NCBI GenBank assembly: GCA_016783965.1
Contig: JADHVO010000008.1
Location: 1 to 64,000 of the forward strand
Direction of reading: 5' to 3'
DNA from: Alphaproteobacteria bacterium
GTDB lineage: Bacteria; Pseudomonadota; Alphaproteobacteria; Micropepsales; Micropepsaceae
DNA: 64,000 nt
Position numbers and translations under genes: made by a program. Within the stretch, counting starts at the first letter, position 1. Each line of letters opens with the position of its first letter. This document shows, one piece after another, positions 250 to 30,575 of the stretch. The notes beneath the pieces are model-generated. The model searched no databases. It was not told the origin of the DNA and saw only the letters and a list, made by a program, of their open reading frames with translations.

Positions 250-338
250 GCACCCGATTCACGACTCTCTAACCATCGATTGCGGGGCCTACCGGGAAAC
301 TGCGATCCGGTAAAATTTGAACCAAATGCGCGCTATTA

Positions 339-391
339 GGCATTATTTGCCGTTAACAGGGCAATTTCTGCCGCGGGTGGCAGTTCTTGCC
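339..391 (-). promoter_or_regulatory. Array of three GGCA-N5-TGCC dyads upstream of flagellin 1
   Basis: Three copies of the dyad GGCA-N5-TGCC lie at 339-351, 360-372 and 379-391, with AT-rich centres and start-to-start spacings of 21 and 19 bases, about two helical turns. They sit 90 to 140 bases upstream of the -24 element of the sigma-54 promoter, where an enhancer-binding activator acts. A fourth copy lies upstream of flagellin 2 (1480-1492). The likely binder is an FlbD-type activator, by analogy with Caulobacter flagellar promoters. The dyads are not sigma-54 promoters themselves because GG and GC are only 8 bases apart. Confidence 0.65.
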
Positions 392-400
392 GGATGACGA

Positions 401-431
401 AAAAGGGCGGCGCCACAGGCACCGCCCTTTT
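401..431 (-). terminator. Terminator after flagellin 2
   Basis: Minus-strand hairpin with arms AAAAGGGCGGTG and CGCCGCCCTTTT (one G-U type mismatch) around a short loop, ending in a T run. It lies about 70 bases past the flagellin 2 stop and would insulate that gene from the flagellin 1 promoter just beyond it. Confidence 0.75.
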
Positions 432-1413: not shown

Positions 1414-1479
1414 ATTTCCGGTAACCCTTTATATCGTTGATTTCCTTGTGAGAATCTCGCGAATTGAAGAACCTCGTTA

Positions 1480-29242: not shown

Positions 29243-29749
29243 TTATGGGCGAATGGTAATCGTATCACCTGGCGCGAGATAACCGAGCAGTTCGACCAGG
29301 TCACATTCGGCCAGTGCAATGCAGCCTTCGGTGGGGCCGTAGTCGGGACGGGCGATGTGCAGGAAGATGGCGCTACCCTTTCCCGCCACCACGGGATCGT
29401 CATTGAAGCCAAGCTCGACCGCGATGTCGTAGAGGTGGTCGCTGCGATACAGCGTTTCGGTGCTTGCGCCATAGGGGGTGCGAACCCAGCGGTTGTAGCG
29501 GGGGTCGCTCGGGGCATCGCACCACGCGTCGCCCTTGATGATCGGCCACAGCTTGAGCCTGGTACGGGGTGCGAGCACACGGTCGCCGCGGAACATCACC
29601 TTGCGAAAGGGCCATGTACCGATGGGTGTGAGCCCATCGCCTTCACGCGCCTTGATACCGATGCCGGAGCGGCCAATGGCGGCGCGGCGCGGGCCACAGC
29701 CGAAATCGAGCAGCGCTTCACGGCCGTTGGCCGTGACGATGACGTTCAT
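29243..29749 (-). CDS. L,D-transpeptidase (YkuD domain)
   Basis: A 168-residue YkuD-domain protein. The catalytic motif is HIARPDYGPTEGCIAL with H131 and C143, matching the H-x(n)-S/T-x-G-C pattern of L,D-transpeptidases that cross-link or anchor proteins to peptidoglycan. No clear signal peptide is visible; the protein begins MNVIVTANGREALLDFGCGP, as in the cytoplasm-type or non-classically exported members. Its ATG overlaps the stop of the upstream unknown gene as ATGA, so the two are coupled. Confidence 0.88.
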   Translation of the reverse strand: MNVIVTANGREALLDFGCGPRRAAIGRSGIGIKAREGDGLTPIGTWPFRKVMFRGDRVLAPRTRLKLWPIIKGDAWCDAPSDPRYNRWVRTPYGASTETLYRSDHLYDIAVELGFNDDPVVAGKGSAIFLHIARPDYGPTEGCIALAECDLVELLGYLAPGDTITIRP

Positions 29750-30456
29750 CAGTGGAGGGTAGCGCGGAGAGCGGGAATTTGCGCGCCCACATTACGCGTG
29801 TGTACCAAGGCGGCGCGCTGGTAGGCGCTGGAACCTCGCAGCGTGGCGTCGGCGGTGGTGCCGACCTGGCGCAACGCGCTGAACAGCATGTCCTGGCCGG
29901 GGACCACCAGCGTCTCGAGCGAGGCGTCGGCAACGACCGCGGGGGCGCTCAGCGCCGGCGCGTCGGATGCGACCGGGGTCGCGGTCGTGTCAATCGGCGC
30001 ATTGCTCGCGACCGCAGTACCGGACGCCACGGCCGGCGAAGAGGAGAAGAAGTTCTCGATGCGATCGAGCAGCGAAGGTTCATTATTGGACGCGACGGCT
30101 GTGGTCGCCGGAGCTGCGTCCGACGAGCCGCGATCGAACAGATTCATGGCGGTGTCGTAGACGGTATCGCCGAAGCTCTTGCCGGTGATCTTTTCGAAGA
30201 TGGTATCCGCAACCGAACCTGCGAAGCCTTCGAGGCCGCCATACAGCGTGTCGCCTGCAATCTTCGGAACCGTGTTGATCGTGTCGCCGGTGATGTGGCG
30301 GTAGAGCGTGCCGACGATCGGGATATGCTGGAGCGGATTGACCATGTCGATCAGGTCCTTGAACGAAAACCCGACATCGGAGTCATCCTGAGCGGCGGCG
30401 GTGGCAGCCGGGAGGGCCTGGATCGGCGTAACGGTAACAGGCGTCATCGCACTCAT
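29749..30456 (-). CDS. Unknown protein coupled to an L,D-transpeptidase
   Basis: A 235-residue protein that I do not recognise. Residues 25-105 look conserved and structured (FSFKDLIDMVNPLQHIPIVG, LYRHITGDTINTVPKIAGDT, TIFEKITGKSFGDTVYD), with glycines and small residues around amphipathic helices. Residues 110-185 are a low-complexity Ala/Ser/Val/Thr linker with repeated VASN or VASD words. No signal peptide or clear membrane helix. ATGA overlap with the transpeptidase gene suggests a joint role in the envelope; that is inference. Confidence 0.7.
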   Translation of the reverse strand: MSAMTPVTVTPIQALPAATAAAQDDSDVGFSFKDLIDMVNPLQHIPIVGTLYRHITGDTINTVPKIAGDTLYGGLEGFAGSVADTIFEKITGKSFGDTVYDTAMNLFDRGSSDAAPATTAVASNNEPSLLDRIENFFSSSPAVASGTAVASNAPIDTTATPVASDAPALSAPAVVADASLETLVVPGQDMLFSALRQVGTTADATLRGSSAYQRAALVHTRNVGAQIPALRATLH

Positions 30457-30575
30457 GCCTTCTTTGGAGCAGGACCCGTGCCAATCCTAAGCGCATGGAA
30501 TCGTTGAACTTCGTTGAGAGGAGGCGGCAAGTCTTGCCGACGGAACCCGACGCTTAAGGCGATCTACTCAGGCAT

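Follow-up and report, generated by a model that had tools for sequence, protein, structure and literature searches.

Phased GGCA-N5-TGCC dyads as predicted FlbD enhancer sites at two alphaproteobacterial flagellin promoters

The window, that is, the whole stretch of 64,000 nucleotides that was analysed, opens at the end of a contig (C15) with a group of flagellar genes, all on the minus strand. A flagellin gene of 275 aa (502-1329, open reading frame) lies next to flaF (1560-1910; Pfam PF07309, E 2.9e-29), beyond which flbT was found (1870-2304, start provisional; PF07378, E 6.2e-45). This gene is referred to below as the flaF-proximal flagellin. The gene that follows it and that is controlled by the dyad array described below is referred to as the distal flagellin; its N-terminal part occupies positions 1-166, where it is cut by the contig end, and it matched the flaF-proximal flagellin at 78% in tblastn. 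Contigs C11 and C15 share 132 identical bases, at the end of C11 and the beginning of C15, and the terminal flagellin gene of C11 (C11:463298-464085) lacks an N-terminus; therefore, the distal flagellin probably continues on C11, with C11:463298-464083 as its remaining part. A hairpin with a T-run, recognized by eye at 400-431 (minus strand), is the probable terminator of the flaF-proximal flagellin and abuts the array. Because it separates the array from the flaF-proximal flagellin, each flagellin appears to be its own transcription unit.

The pattern GGCA-N5-TGCC was matched exactly three times upstream of the distal flagellin, by the promoter-proximal dyad GGCATTATTTGCC (339-351), the middle dyad GGCAATTTCTGCC (360-372) and the promoter-distal dyad GGCAGTTCTTGCC (379-391), which are spaced by 21 and 19 bp, and once upstream of the flaF-proximal flagellin, by the single dyad GGCAAGTTCTGCC (1480-1492). 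All four are predicted FlbD sites, and for each member of the array, sites in the same register were found in the promoters of the genus. Sigma-54 promoters were assigned by pattern match to the distal flagellin (CGGCACGCCGCTTGC, 236-250) and to the flaF-proximal flagellin (TGGCACGCCGCTTGC, 1400-1414); both are on the minus strand and differ by one mismatch in 15 bases. The array lies 89-141 bp above the sigma-54 site 250-236, and the single dyad begins 66 bp above the sigma-54 site 1414-1400. The first-pass annotation had located all four dyads and their spacings exactly; its array distance of 90-140 bp also stood, whereas its 67 bp for the single dyad had to be corrected to 66 bp. Below the single dyad, an IHF-like sequence, AATCAACGATATA (1430-1442, minus strand), has one mismatch to WATCAANNNNTTR, the IHF consensus. 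Between the array and its promoter, the alignment of 27 distal-flagellin promoters revealed a conserved block, AATCGATGGTTA (270-281, minus strand).

In the window, GGCA-N5-TGCC was found eight times, compared with a mean of 1.95 in shuffled sequences, and none of 100 shuffles reached eight. The four remaining matches (24303, 28280, 30526 and 57911) were located away from the flagellin genes; the dyad GGCAAGTCTTGCC at 30526-30538 lies approximately 70 bp upstream of a minus-strand open reading frame (29749-30456) that has no Pfam match and adjoins an L,D-transpeptidase-like gene. Over the 4.29-Mb genome, the single dyad was not enriched (124 matches versus 136 for the reversed pattern), and neither was a narrower form of it (33 versus 43). 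On these counts, one dyad alone is not diagnostic. The sigma-54 pattern alone, counted on both strands, was hardly above its reversed control (23 versus 17). Dyad pairs with 3-12 bases between them occurred three times in the genome versus zero times for the reversed pattern; random placement of 124 dyads would give 0.036 such pairs. All three were at flagellar promoters: two within the flagellin array and one at C11:233715-233746, between flgK and fliK. Genome-wide enrichment, proposed earlier as a check on the motif, was therefore found for phased pairs and not for the single dyad. The dyad centres had also been described as AT-rich, and this was confirmed, as the centres of the seven flagellar dyads of the genome averaged 69% A+T versus 43% in those of 24 others. 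The dyad observation is correct and goes beyond chance.

The C11 pair, whose members are 19 bp apart, is situated between the divergent flgK-flgL and fliK-flgD-flgE genes, 62 bp above the sigma-54 site TGGCACGGCGCTTGC. We take this region to be the counterpart of Caulobacter flaN-flbG with ftr2 and ftr3. One further dyad was found just above fliF (C11, 238580), with fliN and flbD downstream. No exact dyad was detected within the 20 kb taken around fliX. The regulon as surveyed in this genome covers the flagellin, flgK|fliK, fliF and fliX regions and is incomplete.

The genome encodes FlbD, in which a sigma-54 activation domain (PF00158, E 3.7e-72), a Fis-type helix-turn-helix (PF02954, E 1.8e-15) and the GAFTGA loop were identified. 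Its Response_reg score was 22.1 bits, compared with a cut-off of 30.2; a degenerate receiver domain is a feature of FlbD. The flbD gene lies directly downstream of the gene for FliN (PF01052), with FliF further upstream, and a FliH-like open reading frame of this region, in which no fliG was recognized, had no Pfam match. FliX (PF10768, E 1.4e-33) and one RpoN were also found in the genome. The FlbD proteins closest to this one were that of an unclassified MAG (93%) and, for named organisms, those of Rhizomicrobium (83-85%), which suggests that the host is Rhizomicrobium-like.

The distribution of the dyads was studied in a draw of 61 genomes of the genus. Dyad pairs with 0-30 bases between their members were present in 49 of the 61 genomes, with 98 forward matches versus 5 for the reversed pattern. 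Among the 75 matches listed of these 98, the spacing was 17-23 bp in 63, 40-43 bp in 8, 24-39 bp in 4 and 13-16 bp in none, corresponding approximately to two or four helical turns. A degenerate dyad was present midway in several of the 40-43-bp pairs. A flagellin, flgK or fliK gene was found beside the pair in 43 of 47 fetched loci (not in L057, L167, L170 and L175). Upstream of FlgK in 18 genus loci, GGCA-N5-TGCC occurred 31 times versus zero reversed, and other gap lengths occurred at most once each; upstream of FliF in 19 genus loci, the N5 dyad occurred 22 times versus zero reversed, the next commonest gap length, N1, giving 8. The regions upstream of FlgE (19 genus loci) and FlhA (25 genus loci) contained no N5 dyad.

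As a motif-independent test, flagellin protein was used to fetch 30 genus loci, and sites with at most one mismatch were counted in the flagellin promoters. Five flagellin starts with less than 300 bp upstream and three with unclear neighbours (L243, L249 and L253) were left out. Sites were chained only at 17-24 bp, so the spacings in this count are confined to that range, and the search with 0-30 bases described above is the freer test of spacing. Of the 27 distal-flagellin promoters, 22 had three near-exact sites and the other 5 had two, whereas flaF-proximal flagellins had one site in 15 of 21 promoters, two in 6 and never three; no promoter had two or more sites in the reversed control. 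Exact dyads numbered three in 2 of the 27 distal promoters, two in 16, one in 8 and none in 1, the non-exact sites carrying one mismatch. With 17-24 bp allowed, 25 of 49 distal-flagellin spacings were 21 bp. The average information in the genus promoters was 1.80 bits for the half-sites, 0.78 for the dyad centres, 0.50 for the spacers, 1.45 for the columns of the sigma-54 box to which CGGCACGCCGCTTGC belongs and 0.84 for other columns. The first-pass annotation had noted in the window that the two flagellins differ in dyad copy number; this difference was thus kept across the genus, and on these three-versus-one counts it can be regarded as a conserved trait.

The two kinds of flagellin promoter differed in another respect. 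An IHF-like sequence with at most one mismatch was located between the dyad and the promoter in 16 of 21 flaF-proximal promoters (6 exact and 10 with one mismatch), while the reversed IHF control gave no exact match and a one-mismatch match in 1 of 21. None of the 27 distal-flagellin promoters contained an IHF-like sequence at this threshold; these promoters instead share the block AATCGATGGTTA, in which there is no IHF consensus.

Co-occurrence of the dyads with FlbD was also analysed in the genus. FlbD orthologs (E < 1e-100) were detected in 43 of the 61 genomes, and tandem dyads were present in 41 of the 43 genomes with FlbD versus 8 of the 18 without it (Fisher p 2.3e-5). Among genomes at least 90% complete, the corresponding numbers were 34 of 35 and 4 of 11. 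The two exceptions with FlbD, G017 and G071, had three sites with at most one mismatch (L254 and L230). Of the eight FlbD-negative genomes with a tandem match, four were at least 90% complete (G001, G003, G030 and G065). In G036, rated 100% complete, flagellins with phased dyads were found (L234) and no FlbD ortholog was detected, the best match being 44% identical.

Outside the genus, the exact dyad GGCA-N5-TGCC was not enriched in 54 flbD loci (29 matches versus 41 reversed), and the relation of these loci at fliF became apparent only once the fliF promoters were read in register. In the genus, GGCA-N5-TGCC follows a TTTA(C/G) element upstream of fliF in 19 of 19 loci. In loci L112-L163, a set of non-genus flbD loci whose record titles mostly name Caulobacterales and Hyphomonadaceae, the equivalent position was occupied by GGTA or GGAA-N5-TGCC in 35 of 47 cases and by GGCA in 2, the full pattern being unmet in 10. 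A site with at most one mismatch was present somewhere in the fliF stretch in 47 of 47 of these loci versus 15 of 47 for the reversed pattern. The TTTAC element at that fliF position was also observed in L112-L163 loci. By eye, the genus fliF dyad is preceded by TTAA-N7-TTTA (C11, just upstream of 238580), which we liken to the CtrA motif. The recognition-helix core of FlbD, GNRTHAANILGISIRTLRNKL, was identical in 26 of 26 genus loci, in both L110 and L111 and in 47 of 52 others; the remaining 5 differed from it by one residue.

The first-pass annotation had supposed that the motif might be specific to the lineage, which proved not to be the case. In a draw of 385 alphaproteobacterial genomes searched for pairs with 4-10 bases between dyads, phased pairs were found in 73 genomes, 71 of them outside the genus, versus 8 for the reversed pattern. 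A smaller class sample, taken outside the genus, gave no excess of pairs (1 of 24 genomes versus 2 of 24 reversed). Flagellar genes adjoined the pair in 22 of 30 fetched class loci, 16 of these being flagellin loci. FlgI or FliX|FlgI was recognized beside the pair by Pfam in L195, L210, L216 and L218; FlgI in L217 and a FliK-like gene in L194 were recognized by eye only. The pair was not beside flagellar genes in 8 of the 30 loci (L191, L193, L199, L200, L206, L208, L212 and L219), a result that rests on protein scans for all of these but L200, L212 and L219. L200 and L219 resemble simple tandem repeats, and in L191 the phased pair (1501-1531) is beside an open reading frame that matched DUF1217 weakly (E 3.8e-4, short of the cut-off). 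In L192, four dyads in a row (1501-1573; 18, 21 and 21 bp apart) precede a non-genus flagellin gene. The phased-dyad code is widespread but patchy in the class.

The dyads are very probably landing sites of FlbD, as predicted from their sequence and context. With high confidence, we consider FlbD enhancer sites of the ftr type, arranged as a three-site array at one flagellin and as a single site with an IHF-like sequence at the other, to be the best explanation of the whole. FlbD enhancer sites at sigma-54 flagellin promoters had been proposed in the first-pass annotation, and this proposal is supported by the recurrence of the dyads at flgK|fliK and fliF, by the conservation of half-sites and spacing in the genus, by the co-occurrence with FlbD (with the exceptions named) and by the shared fliF position in Caulobacterales-type genomes. 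Each dyad would probably take one FlbD dimer through the Fis-type helix-turn-helix. At approximately 90-160 bp above the start, FlbD would assemble into an ATPase ring, which would open sigma-54 RNA polymerase at the flagellin promoter, FliX presumably licensing FlbD when early flagellar assembly is over. With three sites approximately two helical turns apart, the distal flagellin would have three dimers lined up along the same side of the helix, which may be enough to seed one hexamer. At the flaF-proximal flagellin, the single site might act together with a bend at the IHF-like sequence. We infer FlbD binding, IHF bending and the difference in strength or timing from sequence. Ordinary sigma-54 activator logic covers all observations.

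We regard it as improbable that the dyads instead serve another sigma-54 activator, or an unrelated regulator that binds as a dimer and controls late flagellar genes. Three strong sigma-54-activator matches besides FlbD were found in the genome, one on C8 and two on C12, and these appear to be TacA-, NtrC- and NtrX-like; the C8 activator has a Fis-type helix-turn-helix, and GSFTGA or GAFTGA loops are present in it and in one of the C12 pair. Caulobacter NtrC is reported to bind and repress at sciP, adjoining flgE and flgD (PMC10274813), and dyads occur without FlbD in some genomes. However, the tandem sites track FlbD orthologs, and paralogs 43-50% identical are present in site-less genomes as well (for example, G006, G015 and G025). 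Moreover, the fliF site is the place where Caulobacter FlbD has been reported to act (PMC3930126). It is very improbable indeed that the array merely reflects an element acting in RNA, such as a terminator or hairpins in the transcript of the flagellin upstream, or that it derives from a mobile palindromic repeat: although the terminator-like hairpin at 400-431, seen by eye, abuts the array, the dyads lie beyond it, the GGCA-N5-TGCC dyad recurs at flgK|fliK and fliF, and conservation is confined to the half-sites, with drift in centres and spacers.

A weightier alternative accepts the dyads as FlbD sites and holds that the three copies are redundant, with a strength and timing no different from those of a single-site promoter. 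At least one counted site was mismatched or missing in 25 of 27 distal promoters, which is in line with redundancy; yet each of the 27 distal promoters kept at least two sites, 22 of them kept three, and none of the 21 flaF-proximal promoters had three. We give redundancy a real chance while leaning against it. The most specific form of the FlbD reading is that of two enhancer designs for one activator, a hexamer-templating array that can do without a canonical IHF site and an IHF-dependent single dyad, which would give the flagellins a different onset or level along the filament, such arrays being a widespread alphaproteobacterial late-flagellar code. This is put forward tentatively, as possible but short of probable. 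Under it, the two promoters would respond differently to the FlbD level or to DNA architecture, so expression of the two flagellins would begin at different times or reach different levels.

These results suggest that a readable FlbD DNA code exists outside Caulobacter and that late flagellar genes may be predictable from sequence in many Alphaproteobacteria. As promoters of a single genome carry from one to three phased sites for the same predicted activator, they would also form a natural series for relating enhancer copy number to the assembly of a sigma-54 activator ring, and this series would bear on the order of flagellin use as well. As a type of element, the FlbD/ftr enhancer is already known. 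Neither three-site FlbD arrays nor the GGCA-N5-TGCC motif was reported in the titles and abstract openings of the literature surveyed, a set to which the original ftr papers do not belong. Relative to that set, the three-versus-one design across the genus, the IHF-like partner at the one-site gene and the class-wide phased dyads may be new.

In NtrC-type enhancers, an activator site is combined with IHF-assisted looping. The flaF-proximal flagellin resembles them in having one predicted site and an IHF-like sequence before the promoter, and differs from them in motif and regulon. Another comparison is with Caulobacter FlbD, which binds ftr sites, represses fliF via ftr4 and activates later genes, as described in PMC3930126, and which acts under FliX according to PMC3096577. 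Both systems have the recognition-helix core (47 of 52 L112-L163 loci), the FliX partner and late flagellar promoters of the sigma-54 type. They also share a site at an equal position immediately above fliF and, if flaN-flbG is the counterpart of the divergent flgK and fliK, a pair of sites between these genes. Unlike there, where the fliF dyad is mostly GGTA/GGAA-N5-TGCC (35 of 47), it is GGCA-N5-TGCC here (19 of 19); this comparison was made on orthologous fliF promoters. Three sites approximately 21 bp apart were found here at one flagellin; the promoters compared there were those of fliF. At E. coli norVW, three enhancer sites above a sigma-54 promoter scaffold the NorR hexamer, as stated in PMC2941729. 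The array at the distal flagellin is like norVW in having three predicted enhancer sites above a sigma-54 promoter; it is unlike norVW in activator, signal and motif.
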